Of a stretch of 31,641 nucleotides of DNA, positions 14,714-31,641 are shown piece after piece. The notes under the pieces are model-generated. The model was given only the letters and a program-made list of their open reading frames with translations, was not told the origin of the DNA and did no database searches. Position 1 is the first letter of the stretch; the number at the start of each line of letters is the position of its first letter. The translations under genes and the position numbers were made by a program. This stretch comes from Stramenopiles sp. TOSAG23-2 (lineage: Eukaryota > Sar). The stretch covers positions 1 to 31,641 of the forward strand of contig LT649369.1 of NCBI GenBank assembly GCA_900128395.1, given 5' to 3'.

Positions 14714-16738
14714 ATGCCAAGTGGTAACAACGAATTTTCATTATTACAAAACGCAAATAATAATAGTGACAGCGGAAATAGAAAGGTAACGTCTACCTCT
14801 TTAAATATGGTATCCGATACTGATGCATCTTCCAGGAATGTTTCAGGATTTGAGCATACGGCAATTGAAGTGCCAAAATCAGAGGCACCAGGGACACGGT
14901 GCATTGATTTTAAATTACTATGGGCATATACTGGGCCTGGTTGGTTAATGTCTATTGCCTACATAGATCCTGGCAATCTTGAAGCGGACTTACAGTCAGG
15001 GGCATATGCGGGGATGCAACTACTATGGATGTTATTTTGGGCAACTGTTGCTGGTTTGTTGTTGCAAATCTTAGCGTTACGCTTAGGCGTAGTGACCGGT
15101 AAAAACCTTGCACAAGTTTGCAGGGAAAGATACTCAAGACCTACATCATTTATATTATGGATCATGACGGAATTAGCTATTATTGGTTCCGATATACAAG
15201 AAGTGGTTGGCAGTGCAATTGCATTTAAAATATTATTTGGTTGGAAATTATGGGTAGGATGTGTTGTGACAGGACTTGATACTTTCACGTTTCTCCTATT
15301 ACATGTATTAGGTACAAGAGCCTTAGAGGCCTTTTTCACTTCACTTATTTTTATTATGTTGGTTTGTTTTGTGATTAATTTTGCTGGTGCAGATCCACAA
15401 TGGTTAGGTGGCATGAGTGATGATGGTGGTGGTATTTTATTTGGCACGGCTGTGCCAACTGTTGATGATTACGCGCTTGTTCAAGCCGTTGGAATATTAG
15501 GTGCAGTGATTATGCCACATAATATATATTTACATTCAGCACTGGTAACTAGTCGCAAAATCAATCGCCGTGATCCAAAGCAAATTGAATTAGCAAATAA
15601 ATATTTCTCTATTGAAGGTAGTGTTGCACTTTTCGTCTCTTTTTTAATTAATGGTGCGGTAGTCGCGGTGTTTTCACGTGGTTTTTTTAATCGAAATCAA
15701 TGCGCACGACCAGGTTGGGATACACAAACAGGATTAGTAGAGGGGAATGTGATCATAAATGGCAGTAATGTTAATTTGGCTTGTTATCCTGGGCCAGAAC
15801 GCGACGGCTGTCATATCAGTTTACAAACAGGAGAATATTTAAGTTGTGTAACACCGTTAGGTTTGGAAGGTAAATGTTGTGGTATAGGTTTACATAATGC
15901 TGGTACGGCATTAGAAGGTTTTCTTGGTAAAAGCGCTAAATTCGTGTGGGCAATCGGATTATTAGCAGCTGGACAAAGTTCAACCATGACTGGTACGTTT
16001 GCTGGACAATTTGTTATGGAAGGTTTTTTAAATTGGAAAGTCAGTCCATGGATACGGGTTATGATCACACGCACTGTAGCAATTGGTCCCGCAATTGCAG
16101 TGGCGATCATTTCATCATCTAATGCTACTGCTGGTGATGTCTTAAATGAATGGTTAAATGTTTTGCAAAGTGTACAGTTGCCATTCGCTGTGTTACCTGT
16201 TTTACATTTCACTTCAGATTCAAGAGTGATGGGTGAATTTGTTAATCGTGGTCCAGTAAAAGTCGTGTGTTGGTTTTTAGCTGCTCTCGTTATAGTTATT
16301 AATTTTTATTTAGTTACAACATTTGTGACTGCGCCAGATTCGTAAGTTTGCGCCTCCCTTTATATGAACTTGAAAACTTACATATACGTATTTATTTATA
16401 TTTATATATTAATATATATATTCAAAATATCTAACAAAACACCCTTTTTTTTATATATATAACACAGGCCAACACCACAAACTCCACTTTTTTTCATGTT
16501 CGTAATTCTTGTAGGAGTGTTATATTTGACATTTATATTTTATGTTATTAAAGAAGATTTGCAAGAGTTTTGGAAATTGATAAGACGAAGCATGGGTCAA
16601 AATGATACTTTTGATGATAGCTTAAATCTATTGAAGGAAGATAGTAATGAAGGTGATAGTAATATTTATTATGAAAATTTAGATAGTAATAGTAACATCG
16701 TTGATGATTACGGTGCAATAAATAGTGATGAAGTTTAA
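14714..16738 (+). CDS. Nramp (SLC11-type) divalent metal transporter, two exons
   Basis: Exon 1 is 14714-16341 and exon 2 is 16468-16738; joined they encode 632 residues. Family hallmarks are clear. The TM1 motif DPGN is at residues 85-88, with the metal-binding Asp and Asn. TM6 has the A-x-x-MPH motif, whose MPHN is at 267-270 and which favours Fe2+/Mn2+. The conserved transport signature GQSSTMTGTFAGQ is near 418-430. About 65 polar residues precede TM1. A cysteine-rich extracytoplasmic loop with the potential N-glycosylation site NGS lies between TM7 and TM8. Exon 1 carries eleven membrane segments; the twelfth (LFFMFVILVGVLYLTFIF) and a cytosolic acidic tail are on exon 2. It should be a proton-coupled importer or vacuolar exporter of iron or manganese; the membrane is not predictable here. 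Confidence 0.95.
16342..16467 (+). other. Spliceosomal intron of the Nramp gene (126 bp)
   Basis: The donor is GTAAGT and the acceptor is a pyrimidine/AT tract ending in ACACAG. Splicing joins GAT-TC to G-CCA and restores a frame whose next residues form the missing twelfth membrane segment. Without splicing the frame stops at once, because the TAA lies inside the donor itself (TC|GTAAGT reads TCG TAA). Confidence 0.9.
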
Positions 16739-16874
16739 AAATAAATGAAGCGAGAGATTATTTTTTATTTTTGCTTTTAGCTCCGTCTCTTGTTTATTCT
16801 GTGTGTGTGTTGAGTGCTTGTATGCATCATGTGTTTATATTGTTATATATATAATATTTGCTATACGTCCTACG

Positions 16875-17105
16875 TCCAGCGCGTTCAACGAGAGCGCATG
16901 GAAGGATAGAAACCTACTCGTGCTTGTAGAGTATTAGTTTGCAGAGAGGTGCATTAGAGCTTTACTATAGTATCATAGGATAGATTATCATATTATTCTT
17001 GCGATTGAGTATTGAGAGCATAATATTACTTAACACCGAGAAGTGTAAAATTATTATATAACTTAGCTTTAGATTTTAACCATCGATATTCGTAATATTT
17101 TCTAT
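16875..17105 (+). ncRNA. Dispersed structured element, copy A (candidate RNA or 3' element)
   Basis: This is richer in G+C than its AT-rich surroundings and is nearly identical over its first about 110 bases to 30356-30465. It is also recognisably related to 26995-27415. Visible helices are 16879-16897 (GCGCGTTC/GAGAGCGC, loop AAC), 16915-16933 (TACTC/GAGTA), 16940-16953 (TGCA/TGCA) and the palindrome TACTATAGTA. Conserved single-stranded blocks are GATTGAGTATTGAG and AAGTGTAAAATTATT. It lies 136 bases after the Nramp stop on the same strand. It could be an independent RNA, a 3'UTR element or an ancient SINE; no known RNA class fits. Confidence 0.5.
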
Positions 17106-17126
17106 AAATATTATATATATATGCAG

Positions 17127-17449
17127 CTGATGCTTCGTGTAATCGCAGTTCTGATGCCCAAATATCTTTACACAACCTTGTGCCGATTACTGACTCTGAT
17201 GCGAGTCATATTCATTGCACTTTAAACTGTATATGCAAGAAGGATCATGATATACTCTACCACGGTGCGATGTATCACACACCTTTGAACAATACACGGT
17301 TTTCAATTGATGCATATAATGCGTTAATTGCATCTATTTACCTCCACCAATGTTTTTATATCTTAAAAATATTGGCACACTCTGTGGATTTCAATGAATT
17401 CTATCGCAATGTTACGATTCATTGTCCATCTTTCAGTTTAGTGAGATAG
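17127..17449 (+). pseudogene. Orphan open frame of 107 codons without ATG start
   Basis: After an acceptor-like sequence (TATATATATATGCAG ending at 17126) the frame is open to TAG at 17447-17449. It has higher G+C than the flanks and a mixed residue composition with several Cys and His (HIHCTLNCICKKDHD). There is no ATG near its start and no donor partner I can assign. It directly follows dispersed element copy A. It may be an exon of an unseen transcript, a gene relic, or part of a non-coding RNA; I recognise no domain. Confidence 0.25.
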
Positions 17450-17910
17450 ATTTGTCTCAGTTATTGTATTCTTTCTGGAGAGTAGGAATTATCATGAGTA
17501 AATTAAAAAATAAGTTATGCATATTTTAAAATTTAAATATAAAAAATTCTCTTATCATATTTATTAAATATAAAAAATTCTCTTACTTAAAATTTAAATA
17601 TATATATGCATATATATGATATAATATACTTCTACGAAATCTATAATATATTTTATACACGCAAATATAATTTTTTTTAAAATACGAGAGCTTCGTGCTT
17701 CTTGTGTGTGTCTCATTTTTTTACATATCTGTTTTTTTTTGTGCACGTTTTTATTTATTTTTTTACAACCACACACACTGTACACATTAAAAATGCAATC
17801 TCTCTTCTTTTTATTTTATTATAAAAAACAGTATTTTACGAACTCGTGTCTATAGAAATGTACATCTTTTCGTATGCGTGATATACGCTACTACTAGCTT
17901 TCAAATAATT
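17450..17910. other. AT-rich 3' flank of the STPGP-repeat gene
   Basis: Very AT-rich. It contains two direct copies of AAATATAAAAAATTCTCTTA (about 17534-17553 and 17567-17586), TA runs near 17600, and TACGAACTC at 17837-17845. Read on the minus strand the last is GAGTTCGTA, 66 bases after the stop of the minus-strand gene. No coding frame is convincing. Confidence 0.4.
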
Positions 17911-19494
17911 TTAAAATTTCGGCAAATTAGGCGGAGGGCATAAACTAATGTCATATGCATTTGGACCTGGTGTTTCTGAGGCATTATGTATTGTCCATTC
18001 CAAATCTGATTTTGGTCTTGCACTACTAAAACGACCCCCACGTAAGCGACTTGCAACATCTTTATCGGGTGAATATTGATTAGGGCCTGGAGTTTGACTA
18101 GCATTTAAAATGATCCAATCAATATCTGACTTTGGGTTTGCATCAGAAATTTTAATTGCACCAGCTGTATTTGGACGAGTGTAATCGTCATTAATTTTAT
18201 AATAATTTGGACCTGGCGTTTCTGCACTTCGTAGCATCAAAATTTCAGTATCAGTTTTTGGTTTAGCTGTTGAAATTCTTCCACCTTTCATCCTATCTGG
18301 CACATCTGCAAATCCATATTGATTTGGACCAGGTGTTTGACTGGCCCTATATTGTATCAGCTCAATTTCTGATTTTGGTCTACTTTCATTAAATTTACCA
18401 CCAGACATACCGTATGTTCCAGAATATTTTGCCATGTCATATTGATTTGGCCCAGGTGTCTCTGCTGCTCTGATCATTTTAAGATCAATATCACTTAATG
18501 GATTTGCGTCACTAATACGAATTCCACCTTGTCCACTACCAAATTGTGGAAGCTTATATTGTCCCGGGCCTGGTGTTTCTGCCGCTCTCAACATTTTTAA
18601 TTCTATATCTGTTTTTGGGAAGGACGTACTAAATCTACCACCGCCGTCTGCAAGGGTAGATGGAATAGAATATTGATTAGGGCCGGGAGTGCGGCTTGCA
18701 CGAAGCATAATAATTTCGGTGGATGTCATTGGTTTTGCTGTACTAAAGCGTCCACCCCCCATTTTACTATAATCGTGTGCGACATTGTATTGATTTGGCC
18801 CAGGTGTCTCTGCTGCTCTGATCATTTTAAGATCAATATCACTTAATGGATTTGCGTCACTAATACGAATTCCACCTTTTCCACTACCAAATTGTGGAAG
18901 CTTATATTGTCCCGGGCCTGGTGTTTCTGCCGCTCTCAACATTTTTATTTCGATATCACTTTTCGGTCTAGCATTTGAGAATCTACCTCCACCAGGTTTA
19001 CTCCAACGCCCAGTAGCGCTGGATGGTTGGACATGGTATTTACTTGGTTTTTTCTTTTGCCTAGGTTTTGATAAACGATTGATTATATCCATATTTATAG
19101 GTGCGTACTTTTTTGGTGATTTTCGAACTGGTGGGCCACGTTTCCCCCTTAGACTTTGTGATGTGGTTGGTCGTCTGTCATATAACCTACTGCTTCCACT
19201 ACCTGCAGTTCTGGTTTTTGCCCTTAAACTTTTTGCAGATGCCGACTTCGATGGTTGTGACCTTGTCTTTATAGGAGAAGCATACTTTGATGGCCTTTTA
19301 TTTGCTGCTGTGGTCCTCGGTCTACTATTTGCATTTCTGTCATTAATCTGTTTTCTACTTGGTTTTGCCTTCTTAGTTTTATTTAGTGGTTCTTCGTCTT
19401 CAAAAAAATTCTTTAAAAATGCTTTTTTCTCTTGATCTGCGTTTGTTGCCTCATCTAACTTATTTTTCAAATCAACTTCACGCTTATCCGACAT
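17911..19494 (-). CDS. STPGP/SHIPPO-repeat flagellar protein (527 aa)
   Basis: The start is ATG at 19494 and the stop TAA. Residues 1-165 are basic and disordered, with RPRTTAA and RRPTTSQS motifs. From about residue 190 to the end there are nine repeats of 35-45 residues. Each has the core [EQR]TPGPxxY (ETPGPGQYKLP, ETPGPNQY) and a second part resembling GGRFSxARPKSDIEIxMLRAA. This is the STPGP (SHIPPO, ODF3/CFAP-type) repeat. Members line flagellar microtubules or outer dense structures in ciliated eukaryotes, so an axonemal microtubule-associated role is well supported by family. There is no signal peptide or membrane segment. Two internal stretches of 160 bp are almost identical in DNA, showing a recent internal duplication or gene conversion. 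It shares a divergent promoter region with the IQ/LRR gene. Confidence 0.92.
   Translation of the reverse strand: MSDKREVDLKNKLDEATNADQEKKAFLKNFFEDEEPLNKTKKAKPSRKQINDRNANSRPRTTAANKRPSKYASPIKTRSQPSKSASAKSLRAKTRTAGSGSSRLYDRRPTTSQSLRGKRGPPVRKSPKKYAPINMDIINRLSKPRQKKKPSKYHVQPSSATGRWSKPGGGRFSNARPKSDIEIKMLRAAETPGPGQYKLPQFGSGKGGIRISDANPLSDIDLKMIRAAETPGPNQYNVAHDYSKMGGGRFSTAKPMTSTEIIMLRASRTPGPNQYSIPSTLADGGGRFSTSFPKTDIELKMLRAAETPGPGQYKLPQFGSGQGGIRISDANPLSDIDLKMIRAAETPGPNQYDMAKYSGTYGMSGGKFNESRPKSEIELIQYRASQTPGPNQYGFADVPDRMKGGRISTAKPKTDTEILMLRSAETPGPNYYKINDDYTRPNTAGAIKISDANPKSDIDWIILNASQTPGPNQYSPDKDVASRLRGGRFSSARPKSDLEWTIHNASETPGPNAYDISLCPPPNLPKF
18440..18599 (-). repeat. Internal 160-bp duplication, copy 1 (partner 18788-18947)
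   Basis: Aligned at an offset of 348 bases, this segment matches 18788-18947 at 159 of 160 positions. The only difference is G at 18531 against T at 18879. It covers part of two adjacent STPGP repeats. Neighbouring repeats of the same gene differ much more, so this pair is recent or homogenised by conversion. Confidence 0.9.
18788..18947 (-). repeat. Internal 160-bp duplication, copy 2 (partner 18440-18599)
   Basis: Second member of the near-identical pair inside the STPGP-repeat gene. At the protein level the single difference changes GSGKGG here to GSGQGG in the other copy. Confidence 0.9.
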
Positions 19495-20000
19495 AATTTA
19501 TTGTGCTTGTCAACTGTCTGCTTCTTAATTTTTTCCTTTGTTGAGTATAAAGACAAATAAATTATATATTTACAATAAATGATCGTTCTATGCTTGGCTA
19601 TTTAACAATTTGACGTCTTAGCATGGTTTATGTTCATTAACTTTATGCAAAGGTATATATATATATAAATACATTAGTATTAATAATAATAATATATTAT
19701 TATTACTACTAGTAGTTATATGGTATACCAGTATAGTAATAGTAGATATAATAATAATAATAATATTTTTTTAATAATAGCAAAATAATAATAATAGTTA
19801 ACAGTGCTGTGTAATGCTATTATCAGGTATGCCAGGTGGTACTTATTTACCTTTTTGCTTAGAAAAGTCAATGCTATTTGTATGGTACAAAAAGGAGATT
19901 TATCAACGAATAAGTCTGTGTGTCTGTGTAATAATAATAATAATGTGTAAAAAATATTACACTATAAAATACTTCATACTTCATATACCCCAGATATTAA

Positions 20001-20043
20001 TACCAGCGCATACCAGCAGCAGCATACCAGCATACCAGCATAC
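20001..20043. repeat. TACCAGCA minisatellite
   Basis: TACCAG recurs at 20001, 20011, 20025 and 20033, mostly as CATACCAG with AGC interspersed. It is a short degenerate tandem array in the divergent promoter region, probably slippage-derived. Confidence 0.7.
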
Positions 20044-20153
20044 ATTCTAATTCTTTAAATGAAAAATAATGCTGCGATGCTAGGTGATGGTAGACTATGG
20101 TAAATTATAGTAATATTAATAGGAAGACAGCAGTTATTACGTTATTAGTTATT

Positions 20154-20225
20154 ACTTAGCTCTTATAGCTAGACTAGGAGCTAGCTGAGCTAGCCGCCAG
20201 CTAGAGCTAGCTCTAGCTGCCAGCA
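20154..20225. repeat. CTAG/AGCT-rich palindrome cluster with a 22-bp perfect palindrome
   Basis: The tract is made of overlapping GAGCTAGC and CTAGCTC units and ends in GCCAGCAGC. Positions 20198-20219 are a perfect 22-bp palindrome (outer bases CAGCTAGAG, centre CTAG). It is markedly richer in G+C than the surrounding promoter region. It could be a binding-site cluster or a cruciform/hairpin former. Confidence 0.7.
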
Positions 20226-20427
20226 GCATTTGTAATATCACAGGATCACACAGGATGACGTTGAGTGCTGGAGTGCCAAGTGCCAAAATTACAAAAGGAG
20301 AATACTGAGAGATGGTGTTAAAAAAAAAATGTGCGTATTACTAAGTGCCTATAATAACCACAGGCTAAGTATACAGGAGGTATTATTATTACCACAACAA
20401 GAAGAAGACGGTGGTGGTATTTTTTAT

Positions 20428-20623
20428 AAAAAAATCTAGAAGTTAAAGTGTGATTTATGACAATAACATATATGGTGACAACGTCCAGGAAACCACAAAA
20501 CATATAAATCAAATCGTCCATTTCGAAAAAAATCTAGAAGTTAAAGTGTGATTTATGACAATAACATATATGGTGACAACGTCCAGGAAACCACAAAACA
20601 TATAAATCAAATCGTCCATTTCG
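20428..20623. repeat. Perfect 98-bp tandem duplication before the IQ/LRR gene
   Basis: Bases 20428-20525 and 20526-20623 are identical. Each unit starts with seven A and TCTAGAAG and ends with CGTCCATTTCG. The second unit ends 33 bases before the ATG at 20657, so the duplication lies in the leader or proximal promoter. The absence of any mismatch suggests a recent event, or an assembly artefact. Confidence 0.9.
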
Positions 20624-20656
20624 TTCTTGTCGACACAAATAGTCTCCTTTATAACA

Positions 20657-23600
20657 ATGAGACGCCGTGATCCGCTATTGAATCCCCGAGATTATGGCCC
20701 GGAGTCTAAATTTAGAAAACCAAATGGCAATGCTGTCTTTACAAGTTTTTTAGACGGTACGTTTACTCCACAAAGTGCTTTTGTATATAGAAGAAAAAAG
20801 ATAAGACGAAAAGATGATCCTTTGCCGGAAGTTTACACTATGTCGTCACCTTACAAAAAGCGTCGTCCTCGTCCAAAATCTGCCTCATCGTCAACAAGTA
20901 GTATGAAGAGAAGAAGAGCTAGTTTGAAAAATAGAACACCTACAGACTCTCCCTATAGTACACCAAGAGATTTAGGAAAAAGTAGAAGAGGCAGTAGGCC
21001 AAAAACCGCTCCGTTAAATAAGAATAGCAGTAGACGCGGTAGTAACAGTCAAATAAGTCCAAGAACACAAAAATCTGAATTTGCTATCCCTTCTAAAAGA
21101 GAGGAGTCCAAGGATGAGGCGATTGCACGCAGAAGGAAAGAAATTTTAATGAAAAAAAAAGAGCGTGTCCTTCACCTTCGAAGTATGAAACGAGTTAGTC
21201 GTAATCGCCCTGGTATTATAAATGATGATAATGAAGAAAAATACAGTTTGCCTGTCATGGTTGGAAATTATTCTCGTCCAGATGTTGTAAATTATCCCTC
21301 AACCAAAGAGAAAGCAACGCCTAAGCATTTTGAAAATGACGATGGTGGTGCAGAATATAATTCCCAAGCACAACAAAATGATATTGGAAAGCGAACAATA
21401 AATCGTGTCAAGACGACATTTACAATAAAAGAGTTGTTTACATCAATTATTCCAAAACGTATTCTTTATTCAGATTTACTTTATACTATACCATTGATGG
21501 AATTAGTTTTAGATCACTGGCCTATAGACGATCATTTTTTACACATGCTTGCGGCAAATAAATCTGTACATAAAAACTTGACATTACTACATATTGGATA
21601 TTGCCATCGAGTCACTGACAAAGGGTTAAAAGAATTAGATGGTTGTAGAAATATTGAATCATTTGATATTTCAGGCATACAGAATATAACAGATTATGGA
21701 GTGACGATGTTTGTAAAAACACATTCGCGTATAAAATCTTTTAATTTGTCTCATTGTCAAAGCATCACTGGCGTAGGGGTGCAAGCCTTAATCATGGGTT
21801 GTCGAAATTTAGATACTATTACTATGATTAATTGCAATGGGCTGACCGATAGTGCCATGCAAGCGATTGCTCATCATGCAAAAATTCCATATGCAGCTAA
21901 AATGAAACGAGTAAATTTAAAAGGTTGCACATCTGTTAGTGACGCTGGGATGATGCAGTTGATAACATCTTTGCGCGGGCATGTGGAATACCTAAATATA
22001 TGTGGGGCTAAAGGTACAACAGATATAGCATTATCGGCGTTGCATCACCATGGATCTGCATCGTTTAAGTCATTGCGTTATATTGATGTTTCGAATATGC
22101 GTTTAGGTGATTCAGGCTTAGAATGGATTTCAGAAGGCTGCGGACCAGGTTTGTTGCAACTTAATTTGCGAAATTGCAATTATATAAGTGACACGGGAAT
22201 TGAAACATTAGCTGGACGATGCACCAATTTAACGAATTTAAATCTATCCAAGTGCCATTTATTAACAGATCAATCTATGATTGCTCTTGCAAAATATTTG
22301 AATGGCCACAACATTGATGATACCGGGCACGATAACCATGCTGAAAATGAAAATGTTCGTTTAACTACGCTTTCAAAAGCTGTCCTGACTGGCGAAGTAA
22401 GTAGCGTCAAAGTTTTACTTGATGCTGGTGCAAATATTAATCATAAAGATGGAAATTTGAAATTTCCGTTATGGCATGCTTGCGAACTGGGTTATTTAGA
22501 CGTCGCTCTGTTTTTAGTACAACAAGGGGCAGATATCAGTCAAATTTTTAAGCCAACAGGGCAAACCTGTTTGCACATTGCAGCATTTTATGGACATATG
22601 GATATTGTTATGTTATTAGTTGGCAATGGTATAAGTATAAATAAAGAAGACAATCAAGGGCTGACCCCGCTGTCTGCTGCTGCTACAGAAGGAAAAATTG
22701 ATATTGTCAACTTTTTAAGTAAAAAAGGAGCAATTGGTGACCCCGGTCCAGGGCTTCAAGTATTGGACATAACAGACTGCAAATATATTTCGGATGAAGG
22801 CATTCAAGCAATAGCTACTTGCCAACGTTTGAACACTTTAACTATGGTTGGTGTCGAGCGACTAACAAAACGAGGTTTAAAAGCTTTGGCTTATTCTGCT
22901 TCTGGGAAATCTATGACGTCGTTAAACGTTTCTGGTCGTTATAATGTTTCAAATTCTGGGCTGAACGTTTTCTATGGGATAGCCAGTATAACAACACCAG
23001 GAGCTAGGGCTTTGTCGCATATGATACATTTAACAAAATTAAATTTATGTGGTTTACATCAAATTGGCAATGGCGCAATTAAATCTATTGCAACACATTG
23101 TAAGCATCTTGTAGACTTGAATATAAGTGGATGTGGCCATGTTGAAAACCATAGTATTGCTGTATTATCTCAAACTTGCACAGAGTTAAAAATTTTAAAT
23201 CTTTCAGGCGTTGTGAAATTAGGTGATGAAGGCTTAATCAGTATAAGTAAAGGATTGCGTTCTTTAGAATATTTAAATTTATTTCGTTGTGAAGCTATAA
23301 GCGATAATGGCTTAAAAAAACTTGCATCTTGCACCAATTTAACAGAGTTAAATATTCGTTGTTGTAAATGGATATCTGATGTTTCCGTGTGTGAATTAGC
23401 AAAAGGACTTCCCATCTTAAAATCTTTAAATGTGTCTAATAACTTAGATATAACAAATCGCTCGGTGGAATGCCTGGTCGATAACATGAATTCTCTTCAA
23501 AAGTTTGTTTGCAATGGTTGTCCTGAAATAGAGCCGCCCTGCTTGCAATACGCTGCACTTAAATTGCCATTGTTACAACTTGCTACAATGCGAACAGCTG

Positions 23601-26600
23601 GCTTCATAGGTTTGAGACCGTTAGCTAAAGGGGGTTACATGCGTACAAGAGAAGTCTTTTTAAAGAATGAAGAAAGGTACAATGACGCAGCACTTCAAAT
23701 ACAATTTCATTGGAATTTATATTGTCGTAGGCAGGCCGGAAAAGCTGAGTTAGACATGCGCAGGCTTCATTTTCGAGCTTTTGAACATAAAAATGCTCTT
23801 AAGATTCAAACCATATGGCGTATGTATCATTATGGGAAATTAGGGATTATCAAACGAAAAGAAGAATTGAAGCGGGAGCATGAGAAATTAGTAAAAGCGG
23901 TATGTATGGTTCAACGAAATTATCGCGGCCATCTTGGGTACTTTAAATTTTTAGGTAAAAAATCGCAAAGAAAACGTGAGACTATTGCTGCAATTAAAAT
24001 CCAAAAGATGTTGCGAGGGCATTTTGGTCGCTTATATGCAAAACAATATCGTGATGAATTAACCAAAGCATGTGTACGAGTTCAAAGATCATTTCGCAAT
24101 CATTCTGATCGCATACATAGGATTCTTGCTAGAGAAGCAAAATTGTACCGTAAAGAAATGGAACGGAAAGAAAGCACACTTATTCAGACACAATGGCGTC
24201 GATATTATGCTATAAAATCTGTTCAAGCCAAGCGAGCCAAGATGAATAATGCAGCTGTGACCATTCAAAAACACTATCGCTGCTACTATAAAAGAGAATG
24301 GTATAAAACTTGGAGAAAGAAGCTAATAGATGCTGTAAGACTAGTTCAAAATTGCTTTCGCTGTCATGAAGCAAGGTTTCATTTGCATATTAAGAAACAA
24401 GCCAAAAAATTTAGAGATAGCTTAGAAAAAGATGCATCTACAATTATTCAGAAATACTTAAGAAGGTTTTTTCAAAGAAATACTCTCAATTACCATCAAA
24501 GCAGGCGTAACGCGGCAAAGATGTTGCAAAAGCATTGGCGCGGAAGATTGGAAAAAAAGCGCATTCGATTTGACTATTTATATAAACGTTATAATAAACG
24601 TGAAGAGGAAAAACTAGTGAAAAAAGCAAAACAATTGTATGATGTATGGAGGGAGGAGGAAAAATCAACACCACAAGGTAGACGCATCAATATGATAATG
24701 CGAACAGGTGCTGCAATGATATTGCAAAGAACCAGACGCACAATTCTATGGAATAGGAGGCAAATGGCCATACAACGTTACAATCAATTTTGCAAAGAAT
24801 CGGATGCAGCTACTGTCATTCAAGCGGCTATGAGAATGTTTTTAGGCGTCCGACATTATCGTGAATTCGCATGGAGAGCAGATGAAGCTTCATATAATAT
24901 TTCAAGGTGGTTTAAAAGTTTAAAAATTAAATGGGCATTTCGCTTGAAACTTAAAGAAGCCCGAGCCATTGCTCGAGAAAAGCAGATACAGGAGAAAAAA
25001 CGCTTGATCCAACGATCTTGGGATAGGAGATATGACGCATTGCAACATAGAAGATGCGTTAGAAGTGCTAAGATTATCCAAAAACATTATCGAATACATG
25101 TAGACTATGAAAAGAGGATGGCAGAAGCACGCAGAAAATTAGCCGAGGAAAAAGCAGAGGAGATAAGGGTTCAGGAAGCAAGAGAGCGGGTAGCACAAGA
25201 ACGAATTGAGAGGCGGACCTTGAAAGGTAAATTAAAACGATTAAAAAATCACCTAAGCGATCCTGAGAAAGTAAAACAAACTATAAAAAAATATACAAAT
25301 CCTCATATCATATTGGATAAAGTTGGAAACGCTATAAAATATGTGGAAGAATTAAACGACGAGAAAAAAAGGTTTGAACGAGACCAAGAGGAGTTAGGTG
25401 CAATGGTCTACTCTATTCAATCGAGGCAAAAATCTATGGTATCTCAAAGTGGGTGCATTGATATACACGTAACAGTAGGTGAGACGAATATGGATAACTT
25501 CTTAGAAACGCAAAATGCTCATATGAAAGAAGGCCGTCCATACTTTGAGCGTGTTGGTATAGACCTTGGCTCAAAAGCATATAAAATGTCTCAAGGGCAA
25601 AAAGTGTCTCGGCCTAAATTTATATATTTATGGATGAAAATTGGAAAACAGAGGACGGCACATATTATAACAAACATAACGATCGTTCCTTCTCCGAAGT
25701 TGCACAATAAACATGAAGCAGAATTACGTAGATTGGATCTACGCAAGCAAGGGTTTCAAGTTATATGGCATCATAGACTAAAATTTGAACTTCATCTACG
25801 CCGTGATGGTCATAGCTTAATACGAAAAATTACTACTTGTGCGGATAAGAGAAAGAAGCAGCGATTGGTATCTAATTCCTGGGAGCAAATTGAACCTTCT
25901 TTTGATACGTTTGACGACCAATATGATGATGGTTCGAAATTATTCCTTTATCACACAATGCCGCCAAAAAATGCTAAAGCTCAAGAGGCCCAATACAAGG
26001 CCATTATGCCAGATGATGAATTGGATACGGCAAATATTTCAATGGATGCTCATAGCCGTGCACTGCTTTTAGAACAAGTTGAATATGTGGGTTATTCAGC
26101 TGATGATATAGACTATTTACGTGGTGTTTTTCATCTTATGGATGATGACGATAGCGGTACTGTCGATGTTGATGAATTTTTCAATTATATTAAGCAAAAT
26201 CGTACACCAATTTCAAATCATATATTTGAATTTCATGGCCATGAATTTGGTCATAGTGTCGAAGCAGAGGTTCTTGATTTTGGCATGTTTGTCAAGGTCA
26301 TCTCGCATTTTTGTTTATTTGACACTAATTTAATGGCTAGATTTTTTTGGAAAATAATTGACCCTGAAAACATGTTTGAGGCGGAAGCAAAGGATGTTTT
26401 GCGACTAATAAATATGTTGAGTGAACAATACCCTGGTATTATTAGTACAAATGCAATGAAATTAGCAAAATCTAGGTTGAAGTTAGAATATCCTGAAAAT
26501 ATTGTGAAATATAAAGACTTTTACGTGTTCGTAACTAAAATGCCTACGTTTTTATATCCAGTATTTAGGTTACAGCATTCGATACAAGAGAAATTTTTAG

Positions 26601-26758
26601 GACAAAAATATTGGGAAGATAAGAAAATTATGATGGAAAGAGCCAGACAGATGGTTAAAAAACAAAGAGATTCTGGAAACGATCCAAATATGAGACAAAC
26701 TAGAGCAGGGGATGATAAGAAAGTTTTTGTGGACGCAAAAAAGAAGAAGAAACGTTAA
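20657..26758 (+). CDS. Giant LRR-ankyrin-LRR-IQ-EF-hand flagellum-type protein (2033 aa)
   Basis: I start at the ATG at 20657; ten upstream in-frame codons begin at a TTG and are leader. Residues 1-200 are basic and disordered, with RPRPKSA and SRPKTAP motifs. Cysteine-type (AMN1/FBXL-like) leucine-rich repeats occupy about 305-550, with units such as LNLxxCxxITDxG. They are interrupted by three or four ankyrin repeats at about 567-695 (GQTCLHIAAFYGHMDIVMLLV) and resume at about 696-968. About thirteen to fifteen IQ motifs follow (about 1010-1485; AAIKIQKMLRGHFGR, AAVTIQKHYRCYYKRE), giving a long calmodulin-binding lever. Then come a coiled coil, a segment I cannot assign, and one canonical EF-hand loop (DDDDSGTVDVDE, about 1830-1841). 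The C-terminus is basic. A calcium/calmodulin-responsive axonemal role is inferred from the architecture and its divergent STPGP-repeat partner. Confidence 0.92.
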   Translation: MRRRDPLLNPRDYGPESKFRKPNGNAVFTSFLDGTFTPQSAFVYRRKKIRRKDDPLPEVYTMSSPYKKRRPRPKSASSSTSSMKRRRASLKNRTPTDSPYSTPRDLGKSRRGSRPKTAPLNKNSSRRGSNSQISPRTQKSEFAIPSKREESKDEAIARRRKEILMKKKERVLHLRSMKRVSRNRPGIINDDNEEKYSLPVMVGNYSRPDVVNYPSTKEKATPKHFENDDGGAEYNSQAQQNDIGKRTINRVKTTFTIKELFTSIIPKRILYSDLLYTIPLMELVLDHWPIDDHFLHMLAANKSVHKNLTLLHIGYCHRVTDKGLKELDGCRNIESFDISGIQNITDYGVTMFVKTHSRIKSFNLSHCQSITGVGVQALIMGCRNLDTITMINCNGLTDSAMQAIAHHAKIPYAAKMKRVNLKGCTSVSDAGMMQLITSLRGHVEYLNICGAKGTTDIALSALHHHGSASFKSLRYIDVSNMRLGDSGLEWISEGCGPGLLQLNLRNCNYISDTGIETLAGRCTNLTNLNLSKCHLLTDQSMIALAKYLNGHNIDDTGHDNHAENENVRLTTLSKAVLTGEVSSVKVLLDAGANINHKDGNLKFPLWHACELGYLDVALFLVQQGADISQIFKPTGQTCLHIAAFYGHMDIVMLLVGNGISINKEDNQGLTPLSAAATEGKIDIVNFLSKKGAIGDPGPGLQVLDITDCKYISDEGIQAIATCQRLNTLTMVGVERLTKRGLKALAYSASGKSMTSLNVSGRYNVSNSGLNVFYGIASITTPGARALSHMIHLTKLNLCGLHQIGNGAIKSIATHCKHLVDLNISGCGHVENHSIAVLSQTCTELKILNLSGVVKLGDEGLISISKGLRSLEYLNLFRCEAISDNGLKKLASCTNLTELNIRCCKWISDVSVCELAKGLPILKSLNVSNNLDITNRSVECLVDNMNSLQKFVCNGCPEIEPPCLQYAALKLPLLQLATMRTAGFIGLRPLAKGGYMRTREVFLKNEERYNDAALQIQFHWNLYCRRQAGKAELDMRRLHFRAFEHKNALKIQTIWRMYHYGKLGIIKRKEELKREHEKLVKAVCMVQRNYRGHLGYFKFLGKKSQRKRETIAAIKIQKMLRGHFGRLYAKQYRDELTKACVRVQRSFRNHSDRIHRILAREAKLYRKEMERKESTLIQTQWRRYYAIKSVQAKRAKMNNAAVTIQKHYRCYYKREWYKTWRKKLIDAVRLVQNCFRCHEARFHLHIKKQAKKFRDSLEKDASTIIQKYLRRFFQRNTLNYHQSRRNAAKMLQKHWRGRLEKKRIRFDYLYKRYNKREEEKLVKKAKQLYDVWREEEKSTPQGRRINMIMRTGAAMILQRTRRTILWNRRQMAIQRYNQFCKESDAATVIQAAMRMFLGVRHYREFAWRADEASYNISRWFKSLKIKWAFRLKLKEARAIAREKQIQEKKRLIQRSWDRRYDALQHRRCVRSAKIIQKHYRIHVDYEKRMAEARRKLAEEKAEEIRVQEARERVAQERIERRTLKGKLKRLKNHLSDPEKVKQTIKKYTNPHIILDKVGNAIKYVEELNDEKKRFERDQEELGAMVYSIQSRQKSMVSQSGCIDIHVTVGETNMDNFLETQNAHMKEGRPYFERVGIDLGSKAYKMSQGQKVSRPKFIYLWMKIGKQRTAHIITNITIVPSPKLHNKHEAELRRLDLRKQGFQVIWHHRLKFELHLRRDGHSLIRKITTCADKRKKQRLVSNSWEQIEPSFDTFDDQYDDGSKLFLYHTMPPKNAKAQEAQYKAIMPDDELDTANISMDAHSRALLLEQVEYVGYSADDIDYLRGVFHLMDDDDSGTVDVDEFFNYIKQNRTPISNHIFEFHGHEFGHSVEAEVLDFGMFVKVISHFCLFDTNLMARFFWKIIDPENMFEAEAKDVLRLINMLSEQYPGIISTNAMKLAKSRLKLEYPENIVKYKDFYVFVTKMPTFLYPVFRLQHSIQEKFLGQKYWEDKKIMMERARQMVKKQRDSGNDPNMRQTRAGDDKKVFVDAKKKKKR

Positions 26759-26994
26759 AAAGTACGAACTCGTACGAGTAAAAGTTTATATATAAAAAAG
26801 AAAATGTGCTGACTAACCAACAAAATATCAAGGAGCAAATACCCGAGATTCATCACTTGTCAACGTTACCAACTCGTGATAATTTTGTGCATTGCAATCA
26901 CAACCTATTGTCATCCAAGACAACGGTTGCTATGAATCCACCCCTGGGGAATTCAAAACCATCAAATTTTGGAAAACCTATGGACTGTTCACAT
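26759..26994 (+). other. 3' flank of the IQ/LRR gene with open but ATG-less frame
   Basis: Ten bases after the stop lies a 12-bp palindrome ACTCGTACGAGT (26768-26779). From about 26797 a frame without an initial ATG stays open to TGA at 27067-27069, running into element copy B. Its G+C is higher than in other intergenic DNA. I recognise no domain, and it may simply be transcribed 3' sequence. Confidence 0.3.
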
Positions 26995-27415
26995 CACTTT
27001 CATCGAGAGTGTTATGCTGGATTCAGACCTACTTGTGCTTATAGAGTATTAGCTTGCGGCGGCGCATGAGAGCTTTATTAATAGTAGGAGTAAATCTTTT
27101 TTCAGATTGAGAGGATTAACATATATTATTCCTGAGATTGAGTATTGAGCTTGTGCTTATAGAGTATTAGCTTGCGGCGGCGCATGAGAGCTTTATTAAT
27201 AGTAGGAGTAAATCTTTTTTCAGATTGAGAGGATTAACATATATTATTCCTGAGATTGAGTATTGAGCGGTGTAGTATTTTTCCACGGGAAGTAAAATTA
27301 TTTTTATAAAATATACTTCGTACGTCGTATGATATAATATAAATAAAATATATTACGAATTATATCATAAATAAATGATAACTTTAGATTTTAACCATCA
27401 TTTTTACGCCGTATA
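26995..27415 (+). ncRNA. Dispersed structured element, copy B (diverged, internally duplicated)
   Basis: It aligns with copies A and C from the first hairpin (26995-27011, CACTTTC/GAGAGTG, loop ATC) through the shared GATTGAGTATTGAG and CACGGGAAGTAAAATTATT blocks to AGATTTTAACCATCATTTTT. Compared with A and C, helix one swaps a G-C pair for A-T and repairs a G/A mismatch to T-A. Helix three changes TGCA/TGCA to TGCG/CGCA (27055-27066). A 118-bp part is tandemly duplicated, and an AT insertion separates the last two blocks. It lies between convergent genes, in the same orientation as the other copies. Confidence 0.5.
27032..27267. repeat. Perfect 118-bp tandem duplication inside element copy B
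   Basis: Bases 27032-27149 and 27150-27267 are identical, each running from CTTGTGCTTATAGAG to GATTGAGTATTGAG. The other two copies of the element have this part once, so the duplication is specific to copy B. Confidence 0.95.
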
Positions 27416-27502
27416 AAAAAGAAAATAAAATCTCTCACGCACGTTAATGTACAGTTATACTAGAGATAATTTTTCGTATTTGGTGTAATACTACGATATA
27501 AT

Positions 27503-28441
27503 TTATGGATTCATAATATATCCAGGTACGCTATCTCCATGTACAATTACTAAATTATTGCTAAACGATTTGATTTTTATATATTCTAAGAATTCAGGGG
27601 TTAATTTCTTTAAATTTGATTCAGCTTCTTTTTCAATTTTATATTGAAGTGAATCTGCTTTTTGTTTTTCCCGAGCTACATGCATTTTATCTGCAATCAT
27701 TTCGATTTCCACTTGTTTCTTTGCTTCATCTTCTTGTTGTTTCATATTTACTTTTGCAACATCAAATTCTTTCATAGCTTTTTGTATTTTAACAGCACCA
27801 TCATTTTCAACTTTTTTCAATATAGTACGGCGTTGTTGTTTTCGTATAAGCTGTTGTGTTTGTTGATTGGAAATTTCTGAATAATGTGCCATTAATTTAT
27901 CACTTATTATCGGTTTGGTGACACGTATAGATATCAACTCAATGCCAGGCGCCCAAATATTCAGAACTTTTCGGAGTTGAACTAATAAATTCTCATCTAT
28001 TTGATCGAATTTTGATATATAAATATCTTGCAAGGACGACGTTGAGCAAAATTGATTGATTTCATGATGCAACCTATCGACAATCCAAGTTTGTGCATAG
28101 GAAATAGAATAGTTGGCAACAGTTTCAATAACTTTCGGTCTTTTCAGTCGATGGACAACTTCAATCAGTTCAAAATAAATAGTAACACCGCCATTTGTGC
28201 CACAAGGAATATCTTTAACTCGCTCTGTTAAAAATGATAAAGATATTTGCTCAACACTATCAACATATGGTATTTTGACACCGAAACCGGGGTTCAATAA
28301 AGTTTCTTGTAATTTTCCAGCACGATAAACTATACCGACTTTTCCTGATTCTATTTGAATGATTGATTTTGGTATTGATAATATTGCACTAATAGCAATA
28401 AAAGCTATGATTCCTTGAACAATTATTGTTGGTAATGCCAT
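27503..28441 (-). CDS. ERLIN: Erlin homolog (SPFH/prohibitin-domain ER membrane protein, 312 aa)
   Basis: It is an ATG-to-TAA single exon with start context CAACCATGG. Residues about 5-24 are one hydrophobic anchor. The SPFH domain follows, with erlin-specific sequence: VKDIPCGTNGGV, a NQFCSTSSLQDIYI segment, FDQIDENL, APGIELISIRVTKP. A charged coiled coil (about 200-265) and the erlin-type C-terminal stretch KLTPEFLEYIKIKSF end the protein. Length is close to human erlins (about 340). In animals erlins form large luminal ER assemblies that promote ER-associated degradation of activated inositol-trisphosphate receptors and bind cholesterol. Here ER-membrane scaffolding is a safe prediction; the substrate is not. 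The residues between the CGTNGGV motif and the coiled coil align without gaps as far as I can judge, so it appears intact. Confidence 0.93.
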   Translation of the reverse strand: MALPTIIVQGIIAFIAISAILSIPKSIIQIESGKVGIVYRAGKLQETLLNPGFGVKIPYVDSVEQISLSFLTERVKDIPCGTNGGVTIYFELIEVVHRLKRPKVIETVANYSISYAQTWIVDRLHHEINQFCSTSSLQDIYISKFDQIDENLLVQLRKVLNIWAPGIELISIRVTKPIISDKLMAHYSEISNQQTQQLIRKQQRRTILKKVENDGAVKIQKAMKEFDVAKVNMKQQEDEAKKQVEIEMIADKMHVAREKQKADSLQYKIEKEAESNLKKLTPEFLEYIKIKSFSNNLVIVHGDSVPGYIMNP

Positions 28442-29036
28442 GGTTGTGTTATATGTGCTTGTATCTATTATGTATATTATTATTATACCCTATATCCTTT
28501 TGATTCTATTAACATACATATTACATATATCTTTTTTTAATTAAAAAGATATGTGTTGTATTAGATATTTTAGTATTAATATATTGTAGTAAATATATGC
28601 ACATAGGAAGAAGAACAAAAAAAAAAAAAAAAATGTTGGTTTTATTTTTTTTTTTCTTCATTCCTTCCCGTCGTCGCACCGCACCACCGTCCAAAAAAAA
28701 TATTCTTCTGTGACTTTGGCCTAGTATAGATATATATGTGCATATATAATACTTAACTACCAATTCCAGTATTATGAACCAAGGCATCGTTCCTAGCAGA
28801 TTACTATGAGTATAGCAGTATAGCATCGGTGTAAAAAGCATATTTATATGATATAATGATGTATTATTATTATTATTATAGATATGGAGGGAAATGCTAA
28901 AAGGAAGGAATTTATAATAAAAATTGATATAATAATTAGAATAATACCAAGTAAAATATATTGTATACATATATTTACAATAGTTTCAACGATAATAACG
29001 GATTACATAAACATCTAATATCGTTGAATTGTTATT
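28442..29036. promoter_or_regulatory. Divergent intergenic/promoter region (595 bp)
   Basis: It is shared by the erlin gene (minus) and the unrecognised 353-aa gene (plus). It contains an A-run near 28617-28633 followed by a T-run near 28643-28656, a GC-richer patch at 28660-28690, and ATT trinucleotide repeats near 28861-28880. I see no gene; long open frames on the minus strand here are translated simple sequence. Confidence 0.35.
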
Positions 29037-30098
29037 ATGAAGAAAAAACGTAGACGATGTAAAGAAACGAAACATTATAGACGCGTAGTAAGAAATAGGG
29101 TACAAGAAATATTTGGCCGATATGATAAATTATGTAATAATAATAAGAAGAAATTTAATCAAAAAACTGCATTGAACGTAGTTGAAAACCAAACACGACA
29201 AACTACATTAGTAAATAAGTGTACTATGGAACAATTAGTAATGAAACCTCCCGATCAACCTACGCCATCTCCATCGTCGTCCATCCATAAATTAAAAGAT
29301 ATGATAACATCACCTAATAACGGTCTTAATAATAATGTCAACCTCTCTCCAATACTTTCTTCAAATAATTCCTCCTCCATACAAATAATGAATGTTGATG
29401 GAAGTTTAAGTTATAACCAATCACATTTTATGTATGAAAGTTCGGGGATTATGTCTGATATCGATGGTAGTCAATCTCGCCCATTAATCGTTTCGCCATG
29501 CAAAGATGGTGTTACTACTCTTGGCCATGCTAGGAGAGCTCCCAAAACGACATTGCAATTATCATCCTTTGAATCATCATCATCATCCCTTGAAGAAGCG
29601 GAGGAAGATTTGGAATTATTCGTAAAAGAAAATGAAATGATAAAACAACAATTCTTCGACAATATTAAAAAAAGAATATCGTCATTGATGAAAGAAGGTA
29701 GCAGTCATACAAATGTAAATGCATTCATTGAAAAGTATTGCCAGTACGATAGCAATAAATTTAATACTAGTGTAAACATATTGATTGAACGTTTAAAAGC
29801 ATTGGCTTTGTATTTTTCAACAGATCCATCCTCACAATATACAGCGTGGCGAACTTGCAGTGCTTTAAAAGACATTATAACATTATCTAAAGAGGAAGGT
29901 CATAATATACAGCCAAAATACTATTGGAAACATCGATCATTAAATTTTTGTCGACATTATTTAAAAATTGAAAAAAGTAAAGGATTTCTTTTCTCTCCAT
30001 GGTTATTAGATAATGATGAAGTGGATGATACTGAAGAAGATTCATTTGATGATGCGGAAGAACAAGCATTTGCCGAATCAATACCATTTTCATTGTGA
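29037..30098 (+). CDS. Hypothetical protein with basic N-terminus and acidic C-terminus (353 aa)
   Basis: It runs from ATG to TGA. Residues 1-40 are strongly basic (MKKKRRRCKETKHYRRVVRNR) and resemble a nuclear localisation or nucleic-acid-binding segment. Residues about 40-200 are low complexity, rich in Ser, Asn and Pro. A helical segment at about 195-325 looks like the only folded part; recognisable stretches are KENEMIKQQFFDNIKKRI, NILIERLKALALYF, SALKDIITLSKEEGH and KYYWKHRSLNFCRHYL. The last about 28 residues are acidic (DDTEEDSFDDAEEQ). No membrane segment or signal peptide is present. I do not recognise a family; a nuclear role is inferred only from charge distribution. The 3' flank leads to dispersed element copy C. 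Confidence 0.65.
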   Translation: MKKKRRRCKETKHYRRVVRNRVQEIFGRYDKLCNNNKKKFNQKTALNVVENQTRQTTLVNKCTMEQLVMKPPDQPTPSPSSSIHKLKDMITSPNNGLNNNVNLSPILSSNNSSSIQIMNVDGSLSYNQSHFMYESSGIMSDIDGSQSRPLIVSPCKDGVTTLGHARRAPKTTLQLSSFESSSSSLEEAEEDLELFVKENEMIKQQFFDNIKKRISSLMKEGSSHTNVNAFIEKYCQYDSNKFNTSVNILIERLKALALYFSTDPSSQYTAWRTCSALKDIITLSKEEGHNIQPKYYWKHRSLNFCRHYLKIEKSKGFLFSPWLLDNDEVDDTEEDSFDDAEEQAFAESIPFSL

Positions 30099-30355
30099 AT
30101 TAAGATAGTATGGTATCATATGACCCATAAGATATTGATATGATTAGAGATATGCATATCATATTTAAATCTTACTCGTAATATATGATTACAAATTATA
30201 TGGGGACTATTATATATTATATATATTAACTACCAAAAGAGATTCTTAAATCATATAGAAAAATGAGTCAAAAGTTATTACATATATATATATGATGTGA
30301 GTATTGCATGTATACGGGAATGTATTTTTATATGAAATTTATTTTTTTTATATTT

Positions 30356-30608
30356 TCCAGCGCGTTCAACGAGAGCGCACGGAAGGATAGAAACCTACTC
30401 ATGCTTGTAGAGTAATTTAGTTTGCAGAGGTGCATTAGAGCTTTACTATTAATAGTACTCGTAGGATAGAATATTATTCTTGCGATTGAGTATTGAGCAT
30501 ATGGCCATATTACTTAGCACGGGAAGTAAAATTATTATAACTTAGATTTTTAACACCATCATTTTTTAATAAAAATACGACGGTACGAAGTTCGTAATAT
30601 TTTATTAT
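30356..30608 (+). ncRNA. Dispersed structured element, copy C (candidate RNA or 3' element)
   Basis: The first about 110 bases differ from copy A by two substitutions and two 2-base indels. Helices are 30360-30378 (GCGCGTTC/GAGAGCGC), TACTC/GAGTA, TGCA-GAGG-TGCA, and the 14-bp palindrome TACTATTAATAGTA. It shares GATTGAGTATTGAG and CACGGGAAGTAAAATTATT with the others and ends with a T-run after CCATCA. It fills the space between the 353-aa gene and the stop of the actin-related gene, which it reaches directly. It would be transcribed antisense to the 3'UTR of the actin-related gene if expressed in this orientation. Confidence 0.5.
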
Positions 30609-31641
30609 TTAATATTCAGTTACAATACCACCTTTCATAGAATAAAAACTAGACAAACGATCCTCAACAACTTTCGAGCCACTTTCAAAGTACTCATCTT
30701 TTGTCGTCATTAATGATGAATTTACAAAGGAGGAGGATGCGAGTACATTTCCACCCGTCCACGCAAGATGATGTCGCCCTATAGGTGCATATACCTTTGC
30801 ACCGACACTACCCCACCCATAGGAAGATGTTATTTCATTACGAAATCGTTCTAGGAAGCACGGTAACAACGTTGTTCCACCACATAATACTACATTATGC
30901 TGTAATTTTGCACGATTTTCATTTGATAATCGAGTATTTAATATTGCCTTCCAAAACAATTCTTGCAATGGAGGTATCCTTGTATAATCACTTTCATTTT
31001 GATATAAATTTGCACGTCTAGGAGACCATAATGTTCCCTCTTCTCTAGGGCTTCGAGCAACTTTATTTTCTCCAGGAAATTTCCCATAATCACCAATTAT
31101 AGAACCCGAATAACGGCGACCAGGGGAAACATGCATACGTTTTGAACCAGGTGCAAGATTTTTCATCTTTGATCCTGTAAATAATATTTCTGAAAAATTT
31201 GTTAATTCACTGCGCACAATCAATTTGGTTCCATCTGGTAATTTCATCGGGTATTCCTCCGTGCCAGAAGGTAATTTACAATCATATGCAAATAAATAAT
31301 GAAATAAACTTTTACAATCTATTGCTGGCATTTGTCGGATCATCGGTACACTTTCCTTTGCTGAGTATACTAATGATAAACGTCTATTTACAATTTTATG
31401 CCGTGCATCCCAAAGTGCTTGGCCGCCACCTTTGTGCATTGCAATTTTACCATATTTTTCCTTTGTCGATGTCCACATATGTATATTGCCAAATTCCTTC
31501 ATTATTTTTTGACCATATCCATCTTCTGAATTTGATTTGACAATCAAGTCTTTCAATGAATCCGTTAAGTCTTTCCCAGCTAATTTAACGAATTGGCTTG
31601 CTGGCTGGAAAATTTGTCCATTTAAACAGGCATCAATTGCT
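30609..31641 (-). CDS. Divergent actin-related protein, 5' part beyond the window
   Basis: The frame is open from the right window edge to TAA at 30609, giving about 343 residues. Actin landmarks appear in order: LAGKDLTDSL (actin LAGRDLTDYL), LPDGTKLIVRSE...FSEILF (actin LPDGQVITIGNE...PEALF), NVVLCGGTTLLPCFLERFRNEI (actin VLSGGTTMYPG), and a C-terminal part with WTGGNVLAS and DEYFESG. Between the EILF position and the C-terminal third an extra Ser/Pro/Arg-rich stretch of about 60 residues replaces actin sequence, and about 14 residues extend past the normal actin end. The divergence excludes conventional actin. It is an actin-related protein of uncertain subclass, perhaps cytoplasmic or chromatin-linked. 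The nucleotide-binding N-terminal half is mostly outside the window. Confidence 0.88.
   Translation of the reverse strand, partial: AIDACLNGQIFQPASQFVKLAGKDLTDSLKDLIVKSNSEDGYGQKIMKEFGNIHMWTSTKEKYGKIAMHKGGGQALWDARHKIVNRRLSLVYSAKESVPMIRQMPAIDCKSLFHYLFAYDCKLPSGTEEYPMKLPDGTKLIVRSELTNFSEILFTGSKMKNLAPGSKRMHVSPGRRYSGSIIGDYGKFPGENKVARSPREEGTLWSPRRANLYQNESDYTRIPPLQELFWKAILNTRLSNENRAKLQHNVVLCGGTTLLPCFLERFRNEITSSYGWGSVGAKVYAPIGRHHLAWTGGNVLASSSFVNSSLMTTKDEYFESGSKVVEDRLSSFYSMKGGIVTEY

Follow-up and report, generated by a model that had tools for sequence, protein, structure and literature searches.

The window analysed here, a 31,641-nt stretch of Stramenopiles sp. TOSAG23-2 (contig LT649369.1, forward strand), contains a sequence that occurs three times, in each case between two convergent open reading frames (ORFs). 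This raises the question of whether the sequence is a structured RNA that acts at gene ends or a mobile element whose copies are found there. An earlier note, made from the letters of the window alone, described it as an element of about 230 nt with signs of selection on its RNA structure, and suggested a functional RNA, a 3′ processing element or a short interspersed nuclear element (SINE). As shown below, the copies are members of a large dispersed family; they are probably the 3′ tails of a retrotransposon, most likely a long interspersed nuclear element (LINE), and their bias towards convergent gaps would most simply come about by purging.

Copies of the element and their ends

The copies are termed A, B and C in window order, and positions are those of the window. 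Copy A (plus strand, 16865–17084) is truncated at its 5′ end; the core begins with TCCAG at position 16875, the nhmmer model (positions 1–184) is aligned at 16875–17084, and likeness to a longer copy starts at 16865. Copy C, also 5′-truncated, is at 30356–30561 of the plus strand (model positions 1–183 at 30356–30556, its end being read from the sequence). Copy B (plus strand, 26990–27400; model positions 3–132 and 43–166) represents a second lineage that carries the same 3′ module. The three copies are real and all are in the plus orientation, as read directly in the sequence. A size of about 230 nt does not apply to B, which is ~411 nt long because of an exact 118-nt tandem duplication (plus strand, 27032–27267; positions 27032–27149 and 27150–27267 show 100% identity).

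The description of the element as GC-richer is correct with respect to the intergenic DNA of the window (G+C fraction 0.278, compared with 0.352 in A, 0.319 in B and 0.369 in C), but the left flank of B has a higher value (0.367) than B itself. The block GATTGAGTATTGAG is common to the copies and occurs exactly four times, in A, in C and twice in B; with up to 2 mismatches allowed, four occurrences are found in the window vs. 0.38 expected, and none of 100 shuffles reaches four. A second block said to be shared, CACGGGAAGTAAAATTATT, is confined to B and C and is absent from A even when 3 mismatches are allowed. The T-run that follows CCATCA is flanking DNA and not part of the element, because the bases beyond AACC(ATC) differ among 49 copies.

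The 17.45-Mb assembly that contains the window (793 contigs) was searched for further copies. Copy C as query gave at least 47 matches (40 of 274 candidates scored). The 14-mer GATTGAGTATTGAG, with one mismatch or none, is present at 107 forward and 116 reverse sites, 223 in all (2 + 2 for the reversed-pattern control), and a 16-mer from the 3′ end, AACTTAGATTTTAACC, at 111 + 123 = 234 sites vs. 1 + 1 for its control. The sequence is therefore a dispersed repeat, present in both orientations at more than 200 sites. Several of the listed 14-mer and 16-mer sites are no more than 150 nt from the start of a contig, as would be the case if the assembly is interrupted by the repeat. No match was found among phage records, so that a phage-borne element was rejected; an element of viral contigs was rejected likewise, as of 12 stretches there with an exact 17-mer none fits the module profile.

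Copies were collected by three routes, i.e. by likeness to copy C, from the first 30 listed 14-mer sites and by likeness to the ORF described below; the lengths are thus a biased sample, but no route takes gene order into account. When 29 of the first 57 copies (high-scoring and shorter than 300 nt) are aligned, those in the part listed end at a shared 3′ position, whereas their 5′ ends are ragged. A profile search gave 92 hits; compared with the longest copy (728 nt), these yielded 73 distinct alignments. The 3′ end is fixed, with 54 of the 73 reaching position 710 or beyond, i.e. the last 19 nt, and the 5′ starts are scattered from position 2 to position 652. A fixed 3′ end together with 5′ truncation at many points is the pattern of a LINE.

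Target-site duplications of variable length, also a LINE property, are present in a subset of copies. The flanks of 49 copies whose 3′ end reaches at least position 715 were compared, and one containing Ns was dropped. For the remaining 48, the mean score of the best flank-to-flank match is 9.36 bits, vs. 6.26 (standard deviation 0.62) for mismatched pairs, and none of 300 shuffles gives so high a mean. Seven of the 48 have strong duplications (18 bits or more), where shuffling gives a mean of 0.27 and a maximum of 2. These are of 17 nt (C48), 15 nt (C305), 12 nt (C140 and C161) and 11 nt (C466), the other two consisting of TA repeats (C37 and C13), and the duplication is separated from the aligned element end by 2 to 22 bases. 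The scattered 5′ starts and the duplications also speak against a miniature inverted-repeat transposable element or a Helitron remnant, although no dedicated test for these was made.

The fixed 3′ end, the graded 5′ truncation, the duplications and the number of sites thus make a retroposon the right kind of element among those first suggested, but A and C appear to be the tail of a coding element and not a self-contained SINE. The element would consist of the final codons of an ORF and a 3′ untranslated region of ~180 nt, from a retrotransposon whose full-length form is missing from the assembly. Target-primed reverse transcription would begin at the 3′ end of its RNA, at a nick in the target, and would usually stop early, leaving a dead, 5′-truncated tail with a short target-site duplication around it. 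The 3′ module may be the part that is recognized by the reverse transcriptase. What had appeared as a puzzling structured element is in this way probably a retrotransposon family that occupies more than 200 sites in a single genome and has relatives in public protein sets. It is a new family of a known type, with an unusually strict placement.

Placement between convergent genes

Gene context was determined from ORFs of at least 120 aa and not from annotation. There are 80 merged copies, of which 55 could be classified: 47 are convergent, including the three in the window, seven are tandem (5 sense, 2 antisense) and one is divergent. Among the others, 24 have no ORF on one side and one is inside an ORF. 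The result is similar when the 75 clusters are classified with different ORF minima. The convergent/tandem/divergent numbers are 46/8/1 at 90 aa, 44/5/1 at 120 aa, 40/6/0 at 150 aa, 36/4/0 at 200 aa and 30/4/0 at 250 aa, the rest being unclassified. Along any one contig, convergent gaps alternate with divergent ones, and the two counts differ by no more than one; 1:1 was taken as the null expectation. Against it, 47 convergent vs. 1 divergent gives p = 3.5e-13, and against 2:1, p = 9e-8. Gaps free of copies in the fetched pieces are of all types (8 convergent, 6 divergent, 9 tandem). The convergent bias of the sampled copies is strongly supported.

The three copies of the window prove little on this point by themselves. 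Their gaps are indeed convergent according to the ORF list, but the chance that all three would be so placed is ~0.17 by intergenic bases, and it is the wider sample that carries the placement. The window has a near-perfect alternation of strands from 1099 to 31640, with 12 ORFs of at least 120 aa and 5 convergent, 4 divergent and 2 tandem gaps; the gap bases, copies included, are 3947 convergent, 2276 divergent and 898 tandem.

The simplest cause of this bias would be purging. Insertions at promoters would be lost, and copies would last almost solely in gaps of the convergent type, which contain no promoter. A random distribution combined with target duplications had been named as the mark of an inert repeat; duplications are found in a subset of copies, but placement is not random.

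It is also possible, though doubtful, that the same retrotransposon integrates preferentially into convergent gaps, e.g. into transcription-termination zones, and that no purging is needed. The ratio of 47 to 1 with the probabilities given above would follow directly from such targeting. So would the placement of the copies that look youngest by a score-based proxy of age: nine of these 12 are already convergent, two are tandem and one is divergent. Purging of promoter insertions, however, predicts an identical picture of the bias. In addition, the sole divergent copy and two of the seven tandem copies are among the 12 youngest-looking, the other 43 being 38 convergent, 5 tandem and 0 divergent; this leans weakly to purging, the age difference being non-significant (p = 0.47). 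To our knowledge, no rule of targeting to convergent-gene gaps has been described for elements without long terminal repeats (non-LTR elements). No report of confinement of LINEs to convergent gaps was found among the papers listed by searches of an open-licence library. A broader proposal is unlikely, namely that a hitherto unknown LINE and a SINE-like partner both choose convergent gaps, and that their hairpin-bearing tails may come to serve the 3′ ends of neighbouring genes.

A known case of harmless placement is TRE5-A of Dictyostelium, a non-LTR element that targets positions ~47 bp upstream of tRNA genes (PMC5391098). The present family resembles it as a non-LTR element in a gene-dense genome at sites harmless to genes, but the sites here are convergent-gene gaps and targeting is only a candidate reading. 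The strict confinement of the sampled copies to convergent gaps in a gene-dense genome is observed; if this confinement is true targeting, it would represent another route, besides tRNA-gene targeting, to life in a compact genome.

The coding region and the parent element

The longer copies run upstream into an ORF whose stop codon is within the element as first delimited. The terminal codons are at positions 16877–16909 in copy A and 30358–30390 in copy C (both plus strand), with a TAG stop at 16907–16909 and 30388–30390, respectively, the frame being taken from longer copies. Because the stop lies inside the element, the first of the proposed RNA helices overlaps the last codons of the ORF.

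The ORF looks like a genuine coding region, on three grounds. Counted by codon position 1/2/3, the 18 near alignments show 21/34/46 differences and the 17 far ones 70/100/122. The frame is kept in a second family in the same genome (C33, C207 and others), which shows 34%–37% protein identity with matches mostly in the C-terminal region. In public sets there are 148 related proteins at E ≤ 0.01, mostly labelled ‘ena’ among the 120 matches listed; that search returned only lengths of ~73 to 233 aa. A protein scan of viral contigs gave 33 pattern stretches and no relative.

All copies seen are truncated and display only the C-terminal part of the ORF. A 133-aa piece of the ORF matches 60 places in the genome at E ≤ 0.01, and a 190-aa relative matches 59 places at E ≤ 0.1, and in each case the full span is found only at the place of the query itself. 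The second family, which also consists of truncated retrotransposon ends, has 57 matches at E ≤ 0.1, including cross-matches to the first family.

Several observations weigh against a LINE tail. No reverse transcriptase adjoins any copy. A genome scan for RVT_1 gave two places, both elsewhere: C230:1261–1701, by eye a DIRS/Ngaro-like fragment whose frame of 330 aa continues into AT-rich repeat sequence, and C329:16647–17045, a long open frame that is by eye an apparent telomerase reverse transcriptase. The endonuclease PF14529 has zero matches in the genome, and none of 179 candidates scored is a long relative of the ORF. The full-length parent is for these reasons considered missing. The ORF piece has no match in a Pfam scan, GIY-YIG included; its AlphaFold model is poor (mean predicted local distance difference test score 54), with no PDB match at E ≤ 0.001 in a fold search, and a profile of the ORF against PDB sequences gave nothing convincing (best E = 1.2). 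Among copies with the 3′ end aligned, there is no poly(A) and no clear repeat tail at that end. In addition, target-site duplications are not strong in 41 of the 48 copies tested, and in two of the other seven they consist of plain TA repeats.

The DIRS-like fragment on C230 was considered as a trace of the parent and rejected, the truncation pattern being judged unlike that of DIRS; as far as we know, DIRS elements do not truncate in the manner of these copies. A parent that is another retroelement with 5′-truncated copies, such as a Penelope-like element, is quite unlikely. It would agree with the lack of a LINE reverse transcriptase or endonuclease in the genome scans, and with the partial tandem units that are frequent in the family. 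Among the 92 profile hits, 14 same-strand and 3 opposite-strand pairs are less than 400 nt apart, e.g. in C18, C207, C305, C621, C632 and C11, and partial tandem copies are an arrangement known from Penelope elements. The known piece of the ORF, however, shows neither GIY-YIG nor any other Pfam domain, and the exact 118-nt duplication in copy B resembles ordinary slippage.

A LINE thus stays the most likely parent. Zebrafish LINEs ZfL2-1 and ZfL2-2 have stringent recognition of the 3′ tail, which is bound by a LINE protein (PMC4176376). The present family is like them in its conserved 3′ tail, 5′-truncated copies, target-site duplications and an ORF that ends just before the 3′ untranslated region. 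It is unlike them in that a reverse transcriptase and endonuclease are not seen, tail recognition is what we infer, and covariation in the tail is unsupported. Utopia and other oomycete non-LTR elements (PMC4640811, PMC5348765) are a further point of comparison, their host group being presumably related.

Lineage B shows how the module may be used by a second element. In its copies the match to the module profile begins at position 3, approximately at the first hairpin, and the sequence upstream is unrelated to that of A and C. In the window this lineage-specific upstream part is at 26806–26989 (plus strand) and has no convincing likeness to the ORF of the A/C lineage by tblastn or tblastx. 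Parts of the region 26800–27000 have 17 other matches in the genome, and the copies of lineage B reach upstream to differing points. A 3′ tail held in common with a partner LINE is a SINE property, and lineage B looks SINE-like. Recognition of the module by the reverse transcriptase would explain why the same module is found in lineage B despite an unrelated upstream part, and lineage B may be a parasite on the shared module in the SINE/LINE manner. SINEs share their 3′ ends with partner LINEs (PMC3747384). The A/C and B lineages, with unrelated upstream parts and a common 3′ module, are similar to such partners, but neither a 5′ end nor a promoter is established for lineage B, promoter boxes not having been searched for.

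That the element itself is a complete SINE with a 5′ head of its own is very unlikely. The copies are short and the module is common to two lineages, in agreement with such a SINE, but the region upstream of the A/C-lineage module is the conserved ORF, the 5′ starts are scattered, the upstream extent of lineage B copies varies, and there is no tRNA-like gene in the window.

RNA structure and neighbouring genes

The arms of helix one are GCGCGTTC/GAGAGCGC in A and C and CACTTTC/GAGAGTG in B, and those of helix three are TGCA/TGCA in A and C and TGCG/CGCA in B; all are present as first quoted. The paired differences had been taken to indicate selection on RNA structure. Because they divide lineage B from A and C, they amount, from a comparison of these sequences, to about one event.

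Structure was analysed with 33 modules that cover most of the profile. In these, the proposed helices pair in 80.6% of cells vs. 79.8% in shuffles, with 42 of 500 shuffles as high, and their covariation score (0.091) is reached by 94 of 500 shuffles. Covariation is thus not above background, and the argument from structure fails over more copies, while the argument from placement holds. Sliding the helix partners lowers both measures (at best 60.0% pairing, and 0.062 vs. 0.091), as expected because the structure was taken from these same sequences. RNAalifold gives 17 pairs, two of them changed on both sides, with a covariation term of −0.13, and does not choose helix one.

Some structure is favoured by a slight folding advantage of the sense strand over shuffles: the mean folding z-score of the 33 related copies is −1.34 for the sense strand, −0.16 for the antisense strand and −0.62 for the last 80 nt, but the window copies alone give no more than −0.68, −1.03 and −0.85. 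By eye, the right arm is rewritten in nine of the 33 rows, and C23, the one of the nine with its fold shown, forms another hairpin at the same place. Template switching that gives an inverted copy of the left arm could yield such a hairpin without selection.

A search of the window against Rfam gave no match at gathering thresholds; the one match (E = 0.59, at 30593–30636) is far under the gathering score and outside copy C, and membership of an Rfam family was rejected. A self-contained structured RNA was likewise rejected, given the weak consensus, covariation at the level of shuffles and scattered 5′ starts. The least likely explanation of all is a functional RNA that is conserved, or an element for 3′ processing or termination, working at convergent gene ends. 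In its favour are the strong convergent bias, the sense-strand folding and a hairpin that is placed alike in the folds shown for the A/C, C23 and B types. Against it are the covariation, consensus and Rfam results just given, the scattered 5′ starts, the target-site duplications and the fact that helix one overlaps the end of a conserved ORF.

Copy A has on its left a gene for an Nramp transporter (plus strand, 14714–16345; Pfam Nramp, E = 1.5e-104) and on its right a gene for a SHIPPO/PG-rich repeat protein (minus strand, 17911–19494; SHIPPO-rpt, E = 2.4e-5). Copy B is between a 2043-aa ORF from the ORF list (plus strand, 20627–26758) and a Band 7/SPFH protein gene (minus strand, 27503–28441; Band_7, E = 1.2e-19). 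Copy C is between a 353-aa ORF from the same list, which has no match in the Pfam scan (plus strand, 29037–30098), and an actin-like gene (minus strand, 30609–31556; Actin, E = 7.9e-22). The Nramp protein has 96% identity to an ‘ena’ protein, and its named relatives are mostly from oomycetes among the 120 matches listed; judged from this one protein, the host is probably a stramenopile-like protist not in culture. Genomes of such protists have been assembled from ocean samples (PMC9903769, PMC8163842).

Two further duplications are present in the window. A 98-nt tandem duplication (98% identity) is at positions 20423–20618, directly upstream of the 2043-aa ORF. In the PG-rich repeat gene at 17911–19494, a 196-nt segment is present twice with 93% identity, which suggests a recent internal duplication.

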